This document shows, piece by piece, positions 12,811 to 44,914 of a stretch of 64,000 nt of DNA (positions are counted from its first letter, which is position 1; every line of letters starts with the position of its first letter). The notes below the pieces were generated by a model, which worked only from the letters and a program-made list of their open reading frames with translations, did not search any database and was not told where the DNA came from. The DNA lies in contig NZ_JAIWPJ010000001.1 in assembly GCF_020515625.1 (NCBI RefSeq), forward strand, positions 1,550,001 through 1,614,000, given 5' to 3'. A program made the position numbers and the translations under genes. This DNA comes from Natrinema amylolyticum. Lineage in GTDB: Archaea > Halobacteriota > Halobacteria > Halobacteriales > Natrialbaceae.

Positions 12811-15774
<2,964 letters not shown>

Positions 15775-30900: not shown

Positions 30901-31394
30901 GGATCAACCGACCGCCGGTCAGTTCCCGTCTCCCCCGGCCAGTGGACGGCGGTATAGAAATATGTGATATCATAGTAGTGCATAGAACAGTAAAATAGTA
31001 CTCATATATAGCCCCACATCTGACAGTATCTATTAATACGCACTTATCAACCGTACTACGGCACTTATTCGCTGTTTTCCCTTTCTCATGCAGTTGCCAC
31101 CCCTACCAAAAATATAATTTCCCCAATACGCCGTAAAACGCCCTTTTGAGCCCTAATACGAGACTACTCCTAATCTACTCCACATTCACGACGATATTCA
31201 TTCATATTCTATATGGGTATCTATGTAATCGTATAGTATCGGCTTCGGTCACGGGTGAGCGGTCGTTCGCAGTCGGACTCGAGTCACCGGTATGCTCGAG
31301 TCCGATCGATCAGACTCGATTCGCACACCGAACGGAGACCGGATCGTGCCCACATTTAAATACCAATTCCGTCATACACGGTGACGTACGACCG
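30901..31394. other. AT-rich, G-poor intergenic region before the AddAB-like operon
   Basis: About 490 bases without a supportable gene. From about 30950 to 31240 GC drops to roughly 40%. In 31021-31200 I counted about 20 G and 56 C on the plus strand, a strong C-over-G asymmetry. A TATA-like ATTTAAATA at 31355-31363 lies 30-40 bases before the operon start at 31395. A frame open from 31146 through this region joins the first gene, but its codons and GC differ from the gene, so I do not include it. Confidence 0.5.
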
Positions 31395-33653
31395 ATGACC
31401 ACCACGCCGCCCGCGCTCGACGGAACCTGTAAGCTCCTCCCCTCCCCCCTACCGGGCAACGACGTGTTCGCGACGATCGCCGCGGAGTACGCCGCTCTCG
31501 CCGCGGAACACGGCCCGCGGAACGTCCTAGTCCTGAAACGGCATCCGGCGGGTCTCGAGGCCCTGACCGAGGCGGTAGCGGACGCCGACCTCGAGCGGGC
31601 CGGCGACGATCCCCGTTCACCTCGAATCGAGTCGCTACCGGAACACGCCTCGAAGACCATCGAGGAGTACGATCCGACGCTCTCCCGCCTCGAGTACGAG
31701 GAGCGTATCGAGCTCATCTCGCTCGTGATCGACGGCGCGAGCCGGTCGGTGCCCGACTACCTCGAGCGCGCGGCCGACCACGAGAGCTTCGCGCGCGACG
31801 TCGGGCAACTGCTGCTCGCCGCGACCCGCCAGCGGCTCCGACTCGACGACCTCGACTCGCCCCACGACTGTCTGGCCTTTCTCTACGCGATGAACGACCG
31901 GTTCCACGCGGAACTCGACGATCGGGGCTACGTCGAGCGGGCGGACGTGATCCCGCAGGCGGTCGACCTGCTCGAGGCGAACGCGGACGGACTGCGAACC
32001 CGCGTGACCGACTCCTTCGACGCCGTCCTCGCCGTCGAGTTCGAGGAGTACCGCCGACTCGACCGCCGGTACCTCGCGGCGCTTTCGGGGGACGCCGACC
32101 TCGTCTGTCTCGGCGAGCGCCACGCCAGCGTCGAACGTACCCGGGTCGAACCGGGTCGCGTCGAGGATTTGGCGAGGGACGCGGGCCTCGAGATCGAGCC
32201 GCTCGAGCCCGCGTCCGATCGCGAACCGGCCGACGAACCGCCACATCGACCGATCACGCGGTTCCTCGCGACGGGCGAATCGCCGGACGAACGCGTCGAC
32301 GCCGAAGACGGGCTCACAGGGGGAGGACCGGCCGGTCGCGCCCGACGGATCCGCACCGAAACCGCCCGCGAACAGGTCCGGGCGGTCGCGACCGAAATCC
32401 AGTCGCTGTCCGACCGCCACGGCTGGTCCGCCGACGAGTTCGCGGTCGCCGTGCCGCGGATCGAACGGGTCCCGGAGACCAGACGCCGACTCCGGGACGC
32501 CGGCGTTCCGACGGCGACGATCGGGACCCCATCGCTGGCGGACGATCCCGCCGTGAACGAGCTCTACGCGGTCGTCACGTGCCAGTGCGAACGCGAGCGC
32601 GACGGTGACGCCCTCGAGCGGCTCGGTCCCGCTGACCCGGCCCGCGAGTCCCGAGCGTCGAACGACCCGCGAGACGTCTCGCTGAATCGTCTCCGAGCCC
32701 GCGTTCCGGACTTTTCACCCGACCTGCTCGCCGAAACCGCCGGGTCGAGCGTTCGCCGCTCGCTCGAGCGCTGGATCCGTCGGACGAACCTGAAGGGGCG
32801 AATCGCCCGCGAGGAATCGTGGGTCGACGCCCGCGAGCAGTACGAGGGCGTCGGACGCGTCCTCGAGATCGCCCGGTTCGTCGAGGAGACGGACCTCGTC
32901 GGCCCGGACTGGCAGGGGCTGCGCCGGATGCTCCGGCGGACGATCCGGTACGACGCGCCCTACGTTCACGCGGTCGAGACGCGGCCGCCGACCGGCGGCG
33001 TCACCGTCTGCGCCGTCGACGACCTGAAGTACGACTCGCGGCGGGCGGTCTTCCTGCTGGACCTGATCGACGAGACCTATCCGGGCGAGCAGTTCCTCAC
33101 CCAACTGTTCCCGTCGGCGTGGCTTCGCACCATGCCGACCTATCCCGCGGTCACCGACCCGTCGCTCGAGGACATTTCGGAGACGTTCGAGCCGGTCGAC
33201 GCGACCGCCGTCGGTGACCCCTTCGAGACGTACCACGCCCAGCGGTCCCGTAGGCGGCTCGCGCTCGGTGCGCGCGCGGCCGAGAAGACCCTCTACTGGT
33301 GTTCCTACGAGCGCGGTGCCGGCGGCCTCCAGCGGACCTACGACGAGTCGCGGTATCTGAAGCTGCTCGAGTCGACGCCGGGACTTCGCCTCGCAGACGT
33401 CGACGCCGCGGCCGACGCGGCGATCCACGGCGAGACGAACGCCGTCGAGGCGCTGCTCGACCAGCCCCGCGGCGAACTCGAGCGGGTGCTCCGAGAGGCC
33501 AGCACCGGCGGTGAGGCCGACCTCGGCGAGACCGAGGCGCTGTTCGAGGAGATCGCGGTCGTGCTCGAGGACGGTGATATCGACGACGAACTCGCCGAGG
33601 CGGTCCGCTCGCAGTTCGAGTTCGCCGCGGGCGAGGTGGTCCGCGATGACTGA
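31395..33653 (+). CDS. AddB-like degenerate helicase subunit
   Basis: A 752-residue protein resembling the helicase-like part of AddB/RexB-type subunits. Usable landmarks are NVLVLKRHPAGLEALTEAV, SFDAVLAVEFEEYRRLDRRYL (the region where active helicases have DE motifs), VRAVATEIQSLSDRHGWSADEFAV and VFLLDLIDETYPGEQFL. I find no Walker A GxGK(T/S), so it is probably an inactive helicase fold, as in AddB proteins. It lacks a C-terminal nuclease domain; that domain seems to be encoded separately by the next gene, which overlaps it by 8 bases (ATGACTGA). Likely role: DNA-end or recognition-sequence scanning in a helicase-nuclease. Confidence 0.65.
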   Translation: MTTTPPALDGTCKLLPSPLPGNDVFATIAAEYAALAAEHGPRNVLVLKRHPAGLEALTEAVADADLERAGDDPRSPRIESLPEHASKTIEEYDPTLSRLEYEERIELISLVIDGASRSVPDYLERAADHESFARDVGQLLLAATRQRLRLDDLDSPHDCLAFLYAMNDRFHAELDDRGYVERADVIPQAVDLLEANADGLRTRVTDSFDAVLAVEFEEYRRLDRRYLAALSGDADLVCLGERHASVERTRVEPGRVEDLARDAGLEIEPLEPASDREPADEPPHRPITRFLATGESPDERVDAEDGLTGGGPAGRARRIRTETAREQVRAVATEIQSLSDRHGWSADEFAVAVPRIERVPETRRRLRDAGVPTATIGTPSLADDPAVNELYAVVTCQCERERDGDALERLGPADPARESRASNDPRDVSLNRLRARVPDFSPDLLAETAGSSVRRSLERWIRRTNLKGRIAREESWVDAREQYEGVGRVLEIARFVEETDLVGPDWQGLRRMLRRTIRYDAPYVHAVETRPPTGGVTVCAVDDLKYDSRRAVFLLDLIDETYPGEQFLTQLFPSAWLRTMPTYPAVTDPSLEDISETFEPVDATAVGDPFETYHAQRSRRRLALGARAAEKTLYWCSYERGAGGLQRTYDESRYLKLLESTPGLRLADVDAAADAAIHGETNAVEALLDQPRGELERVLREASTGGEADLGETEALFEEIAVVLEDGDIDDELAEAVRSQFEFAAGEVVRDD

Positions 33654-34680
33654 CGACGCGACGACCGTTCCCGTGCTCGACGTCGACGGCCTCCGCACCG
33701 CGCTCCACTGTCCGCGCCGATACGAGTTCGCCCACGTTCACGGGCTCGAGGGGAGCGACGACGACGCGGTCGACGACCGCGTGGACGTGTTGCGGACCGC
33801 CATCTGCGACGCGCTCCGGAGCGGCGAGACGGACCGAGAGGCGCTCGAGTCGGTCGCCGGCGACCGACTCTCGACGTTGTGGAACGACCACGACGAGCCG
33901 TTCCACTCCGGGACGCAGCGCCGTCACGAGCGACGGGTGCTCGAGGCGACGCTGTCGGCGTATTTCGAGCGCGTCGGGGCCGACCACGCCGCGGGGATCG
34001 AGCGGCTGGACGCCAAGGCGGCTGGCGGCGAACTGATCGGCCCAGGGCTGCCGCTCTCGAGCGCAGTCGACGTGCTCGATGAGACAGTCGAGGCCGAGAG
34101 AGCGAGGATCGACGCGACGGTGGACTACGTCTACGGCGACGGCTCGTCGATCGTCGGCGTCCGGTTCGTCCCGACGCTCGCGCCGCTGGGCCGCCTGCGC
34201 TACCGGTCCGACTGGGAGGGCGACGTCGCCGAGCTCTTCACCGATCACTTCGACGACGAGTCGACCGCGTTCGAGCCGGACCCGGTCGGCTCGCTCTTCG
34301 AGACCGCCGTCGTCCTCGACGGGCTTCGCGGGCTCCGCGACCGGCTCGAGCTCGGCGACCGGACCTGTCGATACGTCCAGATTCCGCTGGCGGAGCGCTC
34401 CGGAACGACGGTGAACTGGGTCCGGGACACCGTCGAGACGAGCCTCGAGGTCGTCGATCTGACCGACGTCTACGTCGACCACCACACCTACGGTATGACA
34501 CACGACCACCGAAACGAGACCGTCGACGACCGACTCGCGAGGATCGCTGCGGGCCTGCTCTCGGGTCCCTTCGATCCGTCCGAGCGCTGGGCACAGATCG
34601 CAGAGCACGCCTGTCCGGACTGTGAGTACACCGTCTGCTGTCAGGAGTACATCGCGAAGGAGGTGCGGTTCGATGGGTGA
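33646..34680 (+). CDS. Fe-S, PD-(D/E)XK-like protein (AddB C-terminal domain or Cas4-like), probably catalytically degenerate
   Basis: A 344-residue protein. ALHCPRRYEFAHVHG near the N-terminus (one cysteine) and CPDCEYTVCC at the C-terminus (CxxC plus further cysteines) form the four-cysteine arrangement that holds an Fe-S cluster in AddB, Dna2 and Cas4 nucleases. In between, RIDATVDYVYGDGSSIVGVRFVP looks like the nuclease core, but the usual (D/E)xK is replaced by a G-V-R-F sequence, so cleavage may be lost. It overlaps both neighbours by 8 bases (ATGACTGA and ATGGGTGA), which means a tightly coupled operon. It may be the missing second half of AddB. No cas genes are present. Confidence 0.6.
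   Translation: MTDDATTVPVLDVDGLRTALHCPRRYEFAHVHGLEGSDDDAVDDRVDVLRTAICDALRSGETDREALESVAGDRLSTLWNDHDEPFHSGTQRRHERRVLEATLSAYFERVGADHAAGIERLDAKAAGGELIGPGLPLSSAVDVLDETVEAERARIDATVDYVYGDGSSIVGVRFVPTLAPLGRLRYRSDWEGDVAELFTDHFDDESTAFEPDPVGSLFETAVVLDGLRGLRDRLELGDRTCRYVQIPLAERSGTTVNWVRDTVETSLEVVDLTDVYVDHHTYGMTHDHRNETVDDRLARIAAGLLSGPFDPSERWAQIAEHACPDCEYTVCCQEYIAKEVRFDG
34659..34665 (+). promoter_or_regulatory. Shine-Dalgarno sequence for the AddA-like gene
   Basis: GGAGGTG, 7 bases before the ATG at 34673 and inside the end of the upstream gene. Strong complementarity to the 16S rRNA 3' end supports translation starting at this internal operon position. Confidence 0.6.
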
Positions 34681-37600
34681 CGGCTCGCGACGGGACGACA
34701 GCGGAGAGCGACCGCTCGAGCCGGGGGCCGACCCGAACGACGACGAACCCGACGCGGGGGCCGCTGCCGACCTCGCGTCCGCCGCCGAGATCGAACCGAA
34801 GGGTAATCAGGAGGCCGTCATCGACAGCCGCGCGGCCTGTACCTCCGTCGACGCGGGGGCCGGTACCGGGAAGACGACGACGATGCTCGTCCGGATCGAG
34901 CGCGCCATCGAGCGGGGCGACGTCGATCCCGACGACGTGCTCGTGTTGACGTTCGCGAACGAGGCGGCTGCCAGCATCCGCACGGCGGTCTCCGAGCGGC
35001 TCGAGCCCGACGCCGCCGCGGCGATCGACGTCTACACCTACCACTCCTTCTGTTACCGGCTGGTCCGGGAGTACGCCTACTACCTCGGCTACTCGCCGGA
35101 GTTCGACGTCGTCACCGAGCGAACGCGTCGCCGGCTCATCGGCCGCCTGCTCGCGGACAACGACTACGACTTCGCAGCCGCGTCGACCCGCAACGACGGC
35201 TCGCCGGCCGACCTCGTCGATGCGATCGACCGGTTCATTCAGTCGATGAGCCAGGAGGACATCACGCCCGACGACCTGCAGTCGGGGCTGCCGCCGGTGC
35301 GGACCCTCGAGCTCTGCAACGAGTTCGTCCTCTGGCTCGAGCGGACCGCCGGCGAGGAGCTCTCGTTCGACAACGAGGCGCTACGCTACTTCAACCGGGA
35401 CGAGTACCTCGAGACGGCCCGGGAGTCGCTGGTCGACTACGGCAAGCTCGTCTCCTACTGCCGGGAGAAGATCGCCGAGGCACCGGCGGCCTTCCGCGAC
35501 GACGACCTAGTGCAGGACGTCGACCGCTATCTCCGAGTGCTCCAGCGGTGCGTCACCGACACGATCGACGCGCTCTCGCTCGACGACCCGACGACGAAAC
35601 ACCTGCCGCGGGCCCTGTTCGGCAACCGGATCTGGGGGACCGCGACGAGCCGGATCGAACAGACCCCCTTCGGGCGGCTGAAACACTACGTCGAGTTCCT
35701 CCGACTGGCCCGCCACTACGCCGACGTCTACGCGGATTACCACGACGCGCTCGAGGCCGAAGGGGCGATGGACTTCGACGAACTGGTGCGGACGGCGACC
35801 GGCCTGCTAGATGACGAGGCGATCGCCGACGAGATCACCGACCAGTGGACGCAGGTCTACTGCGACGAGTTTCAGGACACCGACGCGACCCAGTTTTCCC
35901 TGCTGACCGAACTCACGGACGGCCCCGACCGGCCGGACCTGCTCGCGATCGGCGACAAGGATCAGGCCATCTACGGCTGGCGCGGTACCGACCGCGAGGG
36001 GTTAGACCGGCTGGCCGACGCCTACGACGACCACGAGGCGATCGAACTCGAGCTCAACTTCCGCTCGAGACAGGAGATCCTGGACCTGACCAACGCCTGC
36101 GATTACGGTCCCCAGTCCTCGAAGACGCTGCGGGAGGACGGTCGGACGGCCGGCACCTACGACGAGGACGAGCCGCCGGATCGGGTCGTCAAAGTCGAGA
36201 GCGACGAGGTGCCCCAGTCGACGCCCGAGCAGGTCGCGACGACGGTCTCACGGCTGCTCAACGGCGAGGCCGCGAACGTCCCGCAGCGCTCGCTGGGCGA
36301 TATCGCGGTCATCGTTCGGACCAACCGCCACGCACAGCGGGTCGCAGACGAACTGCGAGAGTTGCAGATCCCCCACGAGATCTCCGGCTCGCCCCGCGGC
36401 GAGATCTCGTCCGGGATTCGGACGGTGCTGTCGTACCTCAGAGTCCTCGTCGAACCGGACGCCGACGCCCACCTCCGGCGCGTGTTGCTCTATCGGTATC
36501 GGTTCACCGAGGGCGATCTCGCGACGCTGCAGCGACGGGACGGCTCGCTGTTCGACGCCGTGACGGACGCTGATCCGGCGGCGCTCGACCTCGAGCATCC
36601 CGATCGGCTCGAGACGGTCCGCGACCACATCGAGCGACTCGAGCGGCTCCGAGACGTTTACCCCCTCTCGGGGTTCGTCCGCCGGTTCCGGGAGCTCACC
36701 CGGATCGAGTGGTTCTGTGCGAGCGAGGAGCGCGCTCAGTTCGACCGCCTCGAGCGGTTCGTCGAGGCCTACGAGTCCGACGGGGTCGTCCAGTCGCTGT
36801 CGAGCGAGTTCGTAGACGCGCTAGCACAGACCCTGCGAAGCGGCGGGAGCGACCGGACGCGTGGGACGCGCTCCGAGGACAGCGTCGACGTGATGACGGT
36901 CCACCAGGCCAAGGGCCTCGAGTTCGATACCGTCCTCGTTCCCTACCTCTCCGACGAGGAGTGGTGCGTCGACGGCGACTACGTCGAGCGGGCACGCTAC
37001 CGGCTGCTGGCCGCGACGCTCGACGACGACGTCGGCTCTCCCTTGCTCGCCGATCTCGCGGCCGAGCGGGTCGCAGAGGAGTGGCGGGTGCTCCACGTCG
37101 CGCTCACCCGGGCCGAGGAGCACCTGTTCGTGTTCGGTTCCGACTACGAGTACGACGGCGACGACGACGAACTCGCGGCGTCGACGGCCGAGGCCTGCCT
37201 GGCGAGCGAGATCGAGTGGTCCGTGACCGGCCAGCGGATGGACCTCTGGTCGTCGCTGACCGAGAGCTTCGAGCAGGTGCGGGAGACCTACCCCGAAACC
37301 GTAGTCGATCGCACCGACGAGATCGCCGCCTCGGCGGGCGAGAGCCCGGGAACGATCACCTACTACGCCGACTACGGCGACCGCCCCGTCGAGCCCCTCG
37401 AGACCCGCGAGGCGATCGAGACGGTCCACCGGCTGGGCCGGCTGCTCCGCGACGGGACGCTGTTGTCGGCGGCCGATGCCGCGAGCCACGGCTCGCTCGA
37501 GGACGGGAGCGGCGACCGATCGGCAGCGGATTCGCCGGCTCGAGTCCCCAGCGGTCGGCGACTCTCCGCGCTGACGACCGACACGGTCCGGTTCCCGGTC

Positions 37601-38449
37601 GAGACGCTCGCGACGGCGACGGAGCTCCCGGTCGCGATGCGCCACAGCTACTCCGCGATGGACACCCACGAGACCTGCGCCCGGAAGCACTACCTCGATC
37701 ACGTCGTCCGAGCGATCGACGATCCGCTCGCGGCGGACGCGATGGACGGCACCGCGACCGAGACGAACGGCGGGACGCCCGCGCCGACCGACGACGCAGC
37801 GTCGCGACTCGTCGGCACCGTCTTCCACGACGTCGCCGAGGAGGCGTTCCACCGCGAGTACCGCACCCGCGAGGCGTGGCGCGAGGCCGCCGTCCGACAG
37901 CTCACCGCGCGAGACCTGCTCGCACACCGGGAGGCCGTCCTCGCCTGCGTCGACCGCTACTTCGCGGCGACCGCACCGGCGGTCGACCGCCCGGTCGCCG
38001 ACTGGGAGCCCCTGGCCGCGGAACTCCCCTTCTCGCTCGAGGACGTGCCCGGCGTGACGGGAGACGTCGTCGGCTACGTTGACTCGGTCCGGCGGCTTCC
38101 CGACGGCGGGCTCGCGGTGCTGGACTACAAGGCCACCGCGGAGCGGATCGACCCCGACGACGCCGCCCAGTTGTCGCTCTACGTCCGCGCCTGCGAGGAT
38201 CGGTTCGACGAGCCGATCTCGGCCGTCGGCTACGTCTACGTCGGCGATATCGACGGCCCTCGCGTCGACCTCATAGCGCCCGACGACCTCCCGCCGTGGG
38301 AGTCCGTGCTCGAGACGCTGGAGGCGGTCGACGAACCGTCGTTCGCGGAGACGACGCCGGGCGACCACTGCCGGCACTGTCCGCACCGCTCGCTGGGCTG
38401 TGGACCGGCGGAGTACACGCCCGAAATCGACCGAACGGGTGACGACTGA
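34673..38449 (+). CDS. AddA-like UvrD-family helicase fused to an Fe-S RecB-type nuclease
   Basis: A 1258-residue helicase-nuclease. Superfamily 1A motifs are complete: Walker A DAGAGTGKTTTM (~60-70), motif II YCDEFQDTD, motif III/IV GDKDQAIYGWRGTD, LNFRSRQEI, motif V TVHQAKGLEFDTV and motif VI HVALTRAEEHL. The C-terminal third is a RecB/AddA nuclease: LVGTVFHDVAEEAFH, then GYVDSVRRLPDGGLAVLDYKA with the catalytic D...DYK, and QLSLYVRAC. Cysteines HETCARK, CRHCPHRSLGC form an Fe-S site. It should unwind and cut double-strand DNA ends. The order helicase-like/nuclease-like/AddA suggests an AddAB-equivalent operon for recombination or defence against foreign DNA. Confidence 0.85.
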   Translation: MGDGSRRDDSGERPLEPGADPNDDEPDAGAAADLASAAEIEPKGNQEAVIDSRAACTSVDAGAGTGKTTTMLVRIERAIERGDVDPDDVLVLTFANEAAASIRTAVSERLEPDAAAAIDVYTYHSFCYRLVREYAYYLGYSPEFDVVTERTRRRLIGRLLADNDYDFAAASTRNDGSPADLVDAIDRFIQSMSQEDITPDDLQSGLPPVRTLELCNEFVLWLERTAGEELSFDNEALRYFNRDEYLETARESLVDYGKLVSYCREKIAEAPAAFRDDDLVQDVDRYLRVLQRCVTDTIDALSLDDPTTKHLPRALFGNRIWGTATSRIEQTPFGRLKHYVEFLRLARHYADVYADYHDALEAEGAMDFDELVRTATGLLDDEAIADEITDQWTQVYCDEFQDTDATQFSLLTELTDGPDRPDLLAIGDKDQAIYGWRGTDREGLDRLADAYDDHEAIELELNFRSRQEILDLTNACDYGPQSSKTLREDGRTAGTYDEDEPPDRVVKVESDEVPQSTPEQVATTVSRLLNGEAANVPQRSLGDIAVIVRTNRHAQRVADELRELQIPHEISGSPRGEISSGIRTVLSYLRVLVEPDADAHLRRVLLYRYRFTEGDLATLQRRDGSLFDAVTDADPAALDLEHPDRLETVRDHIERLERLRDVYPLSGFVRRFRELTRIEWFCASEERAQFDRLERFVEAYESDGVVQSLSSEFVDALAQTLRSGGSDRTRGTRSEDSVDVMTVHQAKGLEFDTVLVPYLSDEEWCVDGDYVERARYRLLAATLDDDVGSPLLADLAAERVAEEWRVLHVALTRAEEHLFVFGSDYEYDGDDDELAASTAEACLASEIEWSVTGQRMDLWSSLTESFEQVRETYPETVVDRTDEIAASAGESPGTITYYADYGDRPVEPLETREAIETVHRLGRLLRDGTLLSAADAASHGSLEDGSGDRSAADSPARVPSGRRLSALTTDTVRFPVETLATATELPVAMRHSYSAMDTHETCARKHYLDHVVRAIDDPLAADAMDGTATETNGGTPAPTDDAASRLVGTVFHDVAEEAFHREYRTREAWREAAVRQLTARDLLAHREAVLACVDRYFAATAPAVDRPVADWEPLAAELPFSLEDVPGVTGDVVGYVDSVRRLPDGGLAVLDYKATAERIDPDDAAQLSLYVRACEDRFDEPISAVGYVYVGDIDGPRVDLIAPDDLPPWESVLETLEAVDEPSFAETTPGDHCRHCPHRSLGCGPAEYTPEIDRTGDD

Positions 38450-42295: not shown

Positions 42296-44914
42296 TCACG
42301 CGTTCCAGTCGAACCGCTCCGGATCGCGCGCGGCGAGCGCCGTCCGAACCGCGGCGACGTTCTCGGGAACGTCGTGGACCCGAACGAGATCCGCTCCCCG
42401 GTCGGCCGCCAGCGCACTGGCCGCGACGGTCGCCTCGAGTCGCTCGCCGGCCTCGCGGCCGACTCGTTCGAACATGGACTTGTGGGAGTGTCCGAAGAGA
42501 ACCGGACAGCCGAGCGCGTGGAACTCGTCGAGCCGGTCGAGGAGTTCGAAGTTCTCGGCGGCGGATTTCCCGAAGCCGATGCCCGGATCGACGATGATCT
42601 GGCTCCGGTCGAGGCCGGCCTTCTCTGCCAACAGGATGCGTTCGGAGAGCTGATCGATCACGTCCGCGACGACGTCGTCGTACTCGACGTCGTGGTCCGG
42701 CACGACCGGCGCGTCGATGCTGTGCATCACGACCAGCCCTGCGTCGTGCTCGGCGGCGACGAATCGCATCTCGGGATCCTCGAGCCCCGAGACATCGTTG
42801 ATAACGTCTGCCCCGGCCTCGAGCGCGGCGTCGGCGACGGCGGCCCTGCGGGTGTCGACAGAAATCAGGGCGTCGAGGTCGGCGATCCGTTCGATCACGG
42901 GCACGACCCGCTCGAGTTCCTCGTCGACCGAGACGGGAGCCGCACCCGGCCGGGTCGACTCCCCACCGATGTCGATCACGTCGGCGTCGTTCTCGATCAT
43001 CGCCTCGGCGCGGGCCACGGCGTCCTCGAGGGCGTCGTACTCGCCGCCGTCGTGGAAGCTGTCGGGCGTGACGTTCAGGATCCCCATCACGGCCGTCCGA
43101 TCCGTCCAGGGGTAGTCCGGGCCGCTCGAGTCGGCCGTCGTCCGACCGACTGCGTGCGGACGGCCGGCGGACTGCGCCGGGCTCGTCGCGTCGCCGTCGG
43201 TTTCGCCGTCGATATTTGTATCGTCCGCAACGCCGACGCCGGCCTCGGCGTCGAGCGCGAGCGTGTCCCGCAACTCCCGGGCGACGTCGGTCAGTCCGTG
43301 GGGCCGCGAGCGGCTCTCGAGGGCATCGACGAGCGACTCGAACTGGGCGAGCGTACCCATCAACACGGCGTCGACGGCCTCGTCGTCTCGCTCGAGGCCG
43401 GAGAGGGCACACTCCCCGCCCAGCCGCAGCAGTTCCTCCTTCAGGACGGTCGCCTGTCGGTCCCGGAGCGCCGTCCTGACGACCCGGTGGACGGCGTCGC
43501 CGTCCAGTCGCTCGACGTCGCCCGCGGCGACGTTCGCCTCCGCGAGCGCGTCGCGAGCGTCCGAGCGGTCGCGAATCCGCTTGGGAACGTCGGTGCGAGT
43601 CCACCTCGAGCGGGCCTCCGCGACCGCGAACAGCGAGCCGGTGACGAGCACGCAGTCGTCGCGCTCGGCGCCGGCGAGGGCGGTCGCGAGCGCGTCCGGG
43701 ACCGCGGTCTCGGTGCGGACGGTACCGACGCCGGCGTCCGCGAAGACGTCGGCGAGGACCGCCCGATCCTCGGCCCGGTCGAGGGTCGGTTCGGTCGCGA
43801 CGACGGTGTCCGGCGTCGGCAGCGCGGCGGCCATCTCGCGGTGGTCCTTGTCGTGCATCGCGCCGAAGACGAGGTGGAGGTCGTCGTACTCGTACGTCCC
43901 GAGCGTCTCGGCGAGCCCCTCGCAGGCGCCCGGATTGTGCGCGCCGTCGAGGACGGTCAGCGGGTCGGTGTCGAGCACTTCGAACCGGCCCGGCCAGTGT
44001 GCGCTCCGCAGTCCGCGCTCGAGGTCCGTCTCCGAGATGTCGCCGATCTGTCTGGCGAGGACGGCGGCGATGCCGGCGTTCGAAGCCTGATGCTCGCCGA
44101 GCAGCGGAATCCGCGTCTCGAGGTCCCACTCCGCGGCGTCGACCGAGACGGCGGCCTCGGTGTGGTTCGTCCGGCCGCCGTAGGCGACCCGAACGTCCGG
44201 ATTCGAAGCGGTCCCGTCGCCGTCGCCACCGTCGTCTGCCCCGCTAGCAGCGGCGTCCGGTGCCGGACCGACCGTGACGACGTCGCCGGCGACGTCGCGG
44301 ATCGCCTCGAGCGGGCTCCCGGTGACGCCCGTGACCAGCGGCGCGCCGGCCGGGGCGACGTGGGCCTTGTCGCGGGCGATCTCCTCGACGGTATCGCCGA
44401 GGATTCCCGTGTGCTCTAAGGTCACGCTCGTCACCGCGCTGGCGATCGGATCGACGACGCTCGTGGCGTCGTACTTGCCGCCGATACCGACCTCGAGGAC
44501 GGCGATATCGACGTCCTCGCGGCCGAACTGCCAGATCGCCATCGCGGTCATCGTCTCGAAGAAGGTCGGGGACTCGCCGTCCGCGCCGCGTTCGGTGATA
44601 TACTCGCGAGCGGCGTCGACGTAGTCACAGACCGCGGCCCGCGACATCTTCCGGCCGTCGACGCGGACGCGCTCGCGGAGGTCCTCGAGGTGCGGCGAGG
44701 TGTAGAGGCCGACGGAGTAGCCCGCCTCGCGCAGCGTCCGCTCGAGCATTCGGGCCGTGCTCCCCTTCCCGTTGGAGCCGGCGATCTGGACGAAGTCGAC
44801 GGTTTCGTGCGGGTTCTCGAGGTGGGCCAGCAGCCGGGCCGTCGACTCGGTGCCCGGCTTCGGGCGGAACCGCCGCAGATCGAAGAGGAAGTCCGCCGCC
44901 TCGTGATACTCCAT
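42296..44914 (-). CDS. folCP: FolC-FolP fusion: folylpolyglutamate synthase + dihydropteroate synthase
   Basis: An 872-residue bifunctional folate enzyme. The N-terminal FolC/Mur-ligase part (1-~430) has the P-loop QIAGSNGKGSTARML and TFFETMTAMA, then EVGIGGKYDATSV. The C-terminal dihydropteroate synthase (~600-870) has GILNVTPDSFHDGG, DIGGESTRPGA, VDTRRAAVADAAL, INDVSGLEDPEM and VDPGIGFGKSAAEN, plus GHSHKSM. Between them is about 170 residues, of which about 430-545 are ordered-looking (helices such as VHRVVRTALRDRQATVLKEEL) before an acidic linker. Fusions of this kind are known in haloarchaea. It makes dihydropteroate and adds glutamate residues to folates. It is divergent from the cupin gene. 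Confidence 0.93.
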   Translation of the reverse strand: MEYHEAADFLFDLRRFRPKPGTESTARLLAHLENPHETVDFVQIAGSNGKGSTARMLERTLREAGYSVGLYTSPHLEDLRERVRVDGRKMSRAAVCDYVDAAREYITERGADGESPTFFETMTAMAIWQFGREDVDIAVLEVGIGGKYDATSVVDPIASAVTSVTLEHTGILGDTVEEIARDKAHVAPAGAPLVTGVTGSPLEAIRDVAGDVVTVGPAPDAAASGADDGGDGDGTASNPDVRVAYGGRTNHTEAAVSVDAAEWDLETRIPLLGEHQASNAGIAAVLARQIGDISETDLERGLRSAHWPGRFEVLDTDPLTVLDGAHNPGACEGLAETLGTYEYDDLHLVFGAMHDKDHREMAAALPTPDTVVATEPTLDRAEDRAVLADVFADAGVGTVRTETAVPDALATALAGAERDDCVLVTGSLFAVAEARSRWTRTDVPKRIRDRSDARDALAEANVAAGDVERLDGDAVHRVVRTALRDRQATVLKEELLRLGGECALSGLERDDEAVDAVLMGTLAQFESLVDALESRSRPHGLTDVARELRDTLALDAEAGVGVADDTNIDGETDGDATSPAQSAGRPHAVGRTTADSSGPDYPWTDRTAVMGILNVTPDSFHDGGEYDALEDAVARAEAMIENDADVIDIGGESTRPGAAPVSVDEELERVVPVIERIADLDALISVDTRRAAVADAALEAGADVINDVSGLEDPEMRFVAAEHDAGLVVMHSIDAPVVPDHDVEYDDVVADVIDQLSERILLAEKAGLDRSQIIVDPGIGFGKSAAENFELLDRLDEFHALGCPVLFGHSHKSMFERVGREAGERLEATVAASALAADRGADLVRVHDVPENVAAVRTALAARDPERFDWNA

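Follow-up and report, generated by a model that had tools for sequence, protein, structure and literature searches.

A three-gene operon, here called A-B-C, lies in a 64,000-nucleotide (nt) stretch of DNA from Natrinema amylolyticum (assembly GCF_020515625.1, contig NZ_JAIWPJ010000001.1, positions 1,550,001 to 1,614,000 of the forward strand), which is part of a Natrinema chromosome and is referred to below as the window. We consider it likely that this operon encodes a three-polypeptide relative of AddAB, AdnAB and RecBCD for DNA-end resection, of which the window's version would have a single motor and a single working nuclease. In this proposal, A and B would together correspond to a single AddB that has been divided between two genes, and C would be the active helicase-nuclease. 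The resection of archaeal DNA ends is attributed to Mre11-Rad50 and HerA-NurA, whereas the present proposal would add a RecBCD-class machine found in nearly all genomes of one large haloarchaeal family.

Conservation of the operon and the correspondence of A and B to AddB

The three genes overlap by 8 bases each, as the initial annotation had stated; at both the A/B and the B/C junction, the downstream ATG sits 8 nt within the preceding gene (Table 1). Related loci were retrieved via A, and 91 of them were inspected in detail. All 91 keep the order A-B-C, contiguous and on one strand, so that the genes do co-occur elsewhere, which had been named as a check. With automatic start choice, the junction offsets in these loci are mostly -1, -4 or -8 nt, the exceptions being a few small positive gaps and one uncertain start. 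Protein identity across the loci goes down to about 30% for A and C and about 20% for B. No fusion of A and B was seen in the 91 loci, the two being separate genes throughout. Comparisons among Natrinema species give omega values of 0.17-0.26 for A, B and C, that is, all three are under purifying selection, and B is therefore being maintained as a protein rather than decaying. The order and tight junctions kept in 91 of 91 loci, together with this selection on each gene, show that the three-gene arrangement is not due to chance.

Gene A has no credible Pfam match; a ribosomal S16 match (E 0.03-0.09) and the IL-12 matches of its profile were rejected as chance. Its AlphaFold model (pLDDT 86, pTM 0.87) has an SF1A helicase fold, and residues 9-743 of the model align with AddB 2-768 over about 620 residues (Z 22, root-mean-square deviation 6.2), the widest cover of any structural match. 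Against PDB sequences, the A profile matches UvrD1 (6e-10), AddB (1.2e-8) and AdnA (5e-5). The helicase motifs, which were counted in 88 homologues per protein, are those of an inactivated motor: Walker A was found in 0 of 88 A homologues within the N-terminal 120 residues, versus 88 of 88 C homologues, and VEFEEY replaces DEFQD (E217 in 88/88, E218 in 87/88). The first description of A, as a degenerate UvrD fold without Walker A, was thus borne out, and judging from its motifs A should not be an active helicase. The NCBI label for A is often 'DNA helicase UvrD' (e.g., locus L173, 13983-16046), which is misleading because A is without Walker A.

Gene B matches Pfam PDDEXK_1 at 9e-5. Four of its cysteines (C22, C323, C326 and C332) are kept in 87-88 of the 88 homologues and appear to be of the iron-sulfur (Fe-S) type. 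The fold relation of B came from VIA-align 2, which re-ranks the Foldseek list, on the predicted fold (AlphaFold, pLDDT 90.7); Foldseek alone gave no match below 0.001 for B, and its profile against PDB sequences gave chance matches alone. The structural matches are led by AdnA 789-1039 (Z 15.3), AddB 785-1138 (Z 14.7) and the Argonaute-associated Cas4-family nuclease ACE1 (Z 13.1-13.8), with lower scores for Dna2 (Z 11.7), Cas4 (Z 10.9) and RecB (Z 9.3) and a weak match to RecC (Z 5.8).

Since A covers AddB 2-768 and B covers AddB 785-1138 without overlap, A stops and B begins at the motor/nuclease junction of AddB (768/785). The comparison of predicted structures with AddB, which had been proposed as a check, hence supports the earlier claim that A and B are AddB cut in two. 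Methanomicrobial genomes of the same phylum provide the unsplit form for comparison: an AddB-like gene of 1026-1052 amino acids (aa) that overlaps or abuts a gene for an AddA-like protein some 1076-1150 aa long. In profile alignment, columns 14-571 of the methanogen AddB are matched by A (E 7.6e-15) and columns 727-1027 by B (E 1.4e-6), so that A and B are colinear with it in this order.

Gene C and the loss of catalysis in gene B

Gene C has Pfam matches to UvrD-helicase, UvrD_C and PDDEXK_1. In addition to Walker A, motif II (DEFQD) is present in 84 of 88 homologues, the nuclease residues H1052, D1137, D1151, K1153, Q1166 and Y1170 are invariant, and the cysteines C1002, C1233, C1236 and C1243 are conserved in 88/88. 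The C nuclease profile matches AdnA best (E 1.9e-7), with C-x2-C...C aligned. A RecD-type SF1B second motor was absent from within the operon in the 91 loci, and the next open reading frames (ORFs) 3' of it in the window are on the opposite strand, one of them small and membrane-type, the other PAS-kinase-like. C is predicted to be the sole motor and nuclease of the window's complex. The PADLOC GajB matches of C cover the generic UvrD core, and no GajA match was obtained for A, B or the core flanks; Gabija was accordingly rejected.

The B proteins fall into two groups. The catalytic residues D173/Y174/K175 are present in 28/28 B proteins of the sister clade (clade I), and the K is absent from 60/60 of clade II, to which the window belongs. 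Despite the loss of D and K, clade II retains H114, D160 and the four cysteines. B had been described as an Fe-S nuclease-like protein; the fold and the cysteines agree with this, but with the D-x-K gone, B is predicted to be catalytically dead in the window's clade, though it may have residual, non-canonical activity. In the phylogenetic tree of C, the haloarchaeal family forms a single clade (SH-aLRT 99) with two subclades that match the state of B (18 rows intact, 19 lost), and the window's C falls in the lost-B subclade. Because this division coincides with the catalytic state of B, a single loss of the B nuclease would explain the data, though the position of the root is unsure. The window's version should thus have one motor and one nuclease, as in RecBC, whereas in the sister clade two nucleases should accompany the single motor, as in AddAB; with B dead, the former is more RecBC-like than AddAB-like in nuclease count.

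The features of the operon are listed in Table 1. The TATA-box-like element TTTAAATA occurs at -36 to -41 in most Natrinema A orthologues, with a degenerate form, TTTAAGTA, in some others; its retention upstream of A fits one promoter for the whole operon. Further 3', at 42296-44914 of the window, a single gene combines Mur-ligase (FolC-type) and pterin-binding (dihydropteroate synthase-type) domains and is syntenic 3' of the operon in Natrinema.

Table 1. Coordinates of the operon, its motifs and one upstream gene in the window
Feature	Position	Strand	Remark
TATA-box-like TTTAAATA, probable sole operon promoter	31355..31362	+	about 40 nt 5' of A start, read from sequence
Gene A, 752 aa, predicted inactivated SF1A helicase fold, similar to AddB N-terminal two thirds	31395..33653	+	
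Gene A, motif II remnant VEFEEY (active motors: DEFQD)	32034..32051	+	alignment
Gene B, 344 aa, RecB/Cas4-type nuclease fold with Fe-S cysteines, predicted catalytically degenerate, similar to AddB C-terminal third	33646..34680	+	
Gene B, Cys22, first of four Fe-S-type cysteines	33709..33711	+	kept 88/88
Gene B, R-F-V, where sister clade has catalytic D-Y-K	34162..34170	+	alignment
Gene B, Cys323/Cys326/Cys332 (C-x2-C-x5-C)	34612..34641	+	kept in 87, 88 and 88 of 88
Gene C, 1258 aa, SF1A helicase, intact RecB-type nuclease and own Fe-S cysteines	34673..38449	+	
Gene C, Walker A AGAGTGKT	34853..34876	+	88/88
Gene C, Walker B/motif II DEFQD	35864..35878	+	DEFQD in 84/88
Gene C, PD-(D/E)XK nuclease domain with Cys1002, Cys1233, Cys1236, Cys1243	37640..38401	+	
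uvrA (context only)	12811..15771	+	co-directional, 15.6 kb upstream of operon

Distribution, genomic surroundings and the link to Argonaute

With the A alignment as the query (E<=1e-6), A was matched in 139 of 391 Halobacteria genomes and in 51 of 86 genera. The positive genomes comprise 89 of 101 Natrialbaceae versus 50 of 290 other haloarchaea, that is, the operon is near-universal in Natrialbaceae and patchy in other haloarchaea. Some genomes have two diverged copies. The window's A is 86-87% identical to A of relatives such as N. altunense and N. pallidum.

The surroundings of the sister-clade copies raise the question of defence. These copies are often found on plasmids or in defence islands, and their neighbours include BREX-5 PglZ/BrxB, type I restriction, DISARM DrmA/DrmE, SIR2 and the type IV secretion system (T4SS) component VirB4, as well as pAgo-AgaP genes. 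RecBCD-type enzymes degrade foreign linear DNA. It could thus be argued that the main task of the entire family, the window's copy included, is nuclease attack on viruses and plasmids, and that its chromosomal fixation in Natrialbaceae reflects a domesticated defence system. We regard this as unlikely, if worth keeping in view. A stringent PADLOC scan of core Natrialbaceae flanks found almost no defence genes, and the main matches were to mad3; the mad3/mad8 candidates were rejected, the checked proteins being UvrA. Of 39 core Natrialbaceae loci, 19 have uvrA upstream in the same direction at a distance of no more than 10 kb; this upstream uvrA occurs in Natrinema and Natronorubrum. Moreover, defence genes are spread patchily, unlike this operon with its occurrence in 89/101 Natrialbaceae, and one methanogen homologue sits behind sbcD-sbcC. 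A phage search with A of the sister clade as the query gave no match. We retain DNA-end resection as the probable role of the window's copy, and the machine seems to have a repair task in certain lineages and a defence task in others.

Two further observations concern the plasmid copies. In a Natrinema zhouii plasmid lineage, genes for a Mre11-like metallophosphatase and a Rad50-like AAA ATPase lie upstream of A-B-C on the same strand (L021, 11809-16054; L088, L114, L115, L116, L176). In a plasmid lineage (L173, 12034-13740; L175, L177), a conserved gene for an AAA_14/DUF4143 ATPase is divergent from A and situated 240 nt upstream of it, and a relative of this ATPase with 55% identity sits upstream of pAgo in the pAgo-linked lineage.

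The link to Argonaute concerns part of the sister clade. Among the 47 places in the 391 genomes that encode a Piwi domain, 13 are directly upstream of A on the same strand, and a contig end probably interrupts a fourteenth (in genome G280). The order pAgo-AgaP(PLD)-A-B-C was confirmed by sequence in 13 loci from several families (L023, 3465-14747; L111, L119, L135 and L189-L197), AgaP and A being in most cases 8 nt apart; pAgo is truncated in L195 and AgaP shortened in L190. The pAgo-AgaP system (APAP) acts against a plasmid and a single-stranded DNA virus, and the same authors noted a helicase-encoding gene near some ago-agaP operons (PMC11442185). In the loci described here, the neighbour of the haloarchaeal long-A pAgo and its PLD protein AgaP is the full three-gene AddAB-like set, in a conserved five-gene order. 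RecBCD has been proposed to serve other Argonautes by unwinding targets or generating guides. A-B-C may likewise aid pAgo by unwinding double-stranded targets or making guides; the operon would provide an Argonaute of a catalytically active type with a helicase-nuclease partner of its own, and the question of how such Argonautes open double-stranded DNA and acquire guides could then be tested directly.

Proposed mechanism, alternatives and comparison with known systems

For the window's version, we infer the following assembly, direction of movement, fork clamp, resection and hand-off to RadA. C would load at a double-strand end and translocate 3' to 5' along one strand as the only motor. A, a dead motor as in AddB or RecC, would form the channel of the second strand and possibly scan it; in AddB and RecC the dead motor channel is the Chi scanner (PMC4824097). 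B would be the detached nuclease domain of AddB, its Fe-S fold probably acting as a structural clamp at the fork. Since B has lost the catalytic D and K in this clade, the C-terminal nuclease of C would cut alone, in a RecBC-like single-nuclease machine, and the resulting 3' tail would pass to RadA for recombination. The sister clade keeps both nucleases and has been taken into mobile defence loci, including the pAgo-AgaP operon. A bolder version, which we put forward tentatively and with low confidence, is a third architecture of the RecBCD/AddAB class that is split, dual-Fe-S and single-motor; A of the chromosomal clade would scan an archaeal Chi-like signal, and the mobile dual-nuclease version would be physically coupled to Argonaute, where it would unwind the DNA of invaders and either supply or expose guides and targets.

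Several points weigh against the resection reading and its AddB component. UvrD, PcrA and Rep chains outscore AddB for A (Z 24-26 vs 22), though with a shorter cover of 425-521 residues. In control comparisons, the A profile also matches C (E 6.9e-13), and the B profile matches the C nuclease profile (E 3.9e-6) about as well as AddB; for this reason the profiles alone do not single out AddB. C is below the curated addA cut-off (TIGR02785, 149.7 vs 707.65 bits), fails that of recB too, and groups with neither AddA nor RecB but in a separate clade (SH-aLRT 99) with long outgroup branches. On score and tree, C therefore does not qualify as an AddA orthologue, and with the long branches its placement relative to AddA, AdnB and UvrD is tentative; of the earlier description of C as an AddA-like helicase fused to an intact RecB nuclease with its own Fe-S cysteines, the motifs stand, while the likeness to AddA is not supported as orthology. 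The role in resection may be redundant with Mre11, HerA-like ATPases and NurA, whose genes are also present in the genome; since they are, A-B-C would be an addition to the standard archaeal set and not a substitute for it. Finally, the proposal is built on sequence and predicted folds.

The same points could be taken to mean that no AddB was ever split: a dead UvrD paralogue and a stand-alone nuclease of the Cas4/ACE1 kind, as the matches of A to UvrD/PcrA and of B to ACE1 would allow, might have been recruited independently beside a C that lies outside the AddA clade, and the result would be merely AddB-like. This seems to us rather improbable. The division between A and B falls at the motor/nuclease boundary of AddB; the alignment with AddB runs further towards the C terminus of A (to residue 743) than that with UvrD (to about 674), order and tight junctions barely vary, and the methanogen AddB spans both A and B. 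The least probable reading is that C acts as a solo helicase-nuclease in the style of UvrD-Cas4 fusions and that A-B, instead of providing channel subunits, make up a module that regulates or inhibits it. Partnerless single UvrD-nuclease fusions are common (PMC5704561; L164, L165, L170), but every C of this family in the 91 loci is accompanied by A and B, in a set that was fetched via A and may miss a solo C. The assignment of A to AddB, as suggested by coverage, colinearity and partnership, remains our preferred reading.

If this reading is correct, scanner, clamp and motor would be encoded by separate genes, each open to deletion on its own, as a consequence of the split AddB, and the clean division between a mobile clade whose B nuclease is intact and a clade whose B nuclease is predicted to be dead would be a natural experiment on the origin of RecC-like dead nucleases. 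The A-B-C operon was not found described in the open-access literature, subscription journals lying outside the search, and a term search of two reviews of archaeal repair (PMC7776575, PMC7690668) found no mention of a RecBCD-class haloarchaeal machine. The initial annotation had called such a system little described in archaea; this holds, within that search, for the A-B-C operon, but archaea are not devoid of AddAB, because methanogens and some haloarchaeal plasmids have two-gene versions. One methanogen cluster, sbcD-sbcC-addB-addA (L168, 2179-13695), is a bacterial-style end-processing cluster in an archaeon. The window's own genome encodes an AddB-like protein of 1177 aa (TIGR02773, 1.5e-7) and an AddA-like protein of 1223 aa as a second, two-gene pair on another contig, C6 (63921-67301 region; L172, 6335-13503), and a two-gene AddBA-like pair lies near TIR-domain genes on a Halobacterium hubeiense plasmid (L187, 2922-9609).

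Compared with HerA-NurA, A, B and C are of different families, and the genome has its HerA-like and NurA genes elsewhere. The two-gene AddBA of methanogens (L166-L169, L171) and haloarchaeal plasmids (L187, L172) shows the same pairing of a dead helicase/nuclease followed by an active helicase/nuclease, in genes that overlap or abut; its AddB is unsplit, and in the tree its large subunit does not fall within the haloarchaeal C clade. With AddAB of Bacillus subtilis (AddB 3u44_B/4cej_B, AddA 3u44_A), the operon shares a dead helicase fold and an Fe-S nuclease domain, as well as their partner, an active SF1A helicase-nuclease. AddB is one polypeptide, whereas here there are two genes; A is without any Walker A, B is predicted to be dead in the window's clade, and C has an additional set of Fe-S cysteines. 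A single-polypeptide AddB, a competent AddB nuclease and AddA orthology were all looked for and not found, and we therefore do not file the operon as AddAB proper. In mycobacterial AdnAB, to whose AdnA nuclease B is nearest by Z, tied with AddB, AdnA and AdnB are single fused proteins, and AdnA has an intact Walker A motor, unlike A, which is without ATPase motifs. Both nuclease domains have cysteine sets here; the match to AdnB ended before that region. The window's clade may resemble RecBCD in that one active nuclease goes with a partner that has a dead motor and a predicted dead nuclease (cf. RecB and RecC), but B keeps its Fe-S cysteines and is a weak structural match to RecC. RecBCD differs in having a RecD-type second motor, for which the operon has no counterpart, and a RecC that is a single polypeptide; Fe-S cysteines are absent from RecB, and RecC is not known to have an Fe-S cluster. 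The class of AddAB, AdnAB and RecBCD is thus known, and what is new is an AddB apparently split in two genes, cysteines on both nuclease domains, a clade in which one nuclease is predicted to be dead, and a mobile sister clade tied in part to Argonaute.

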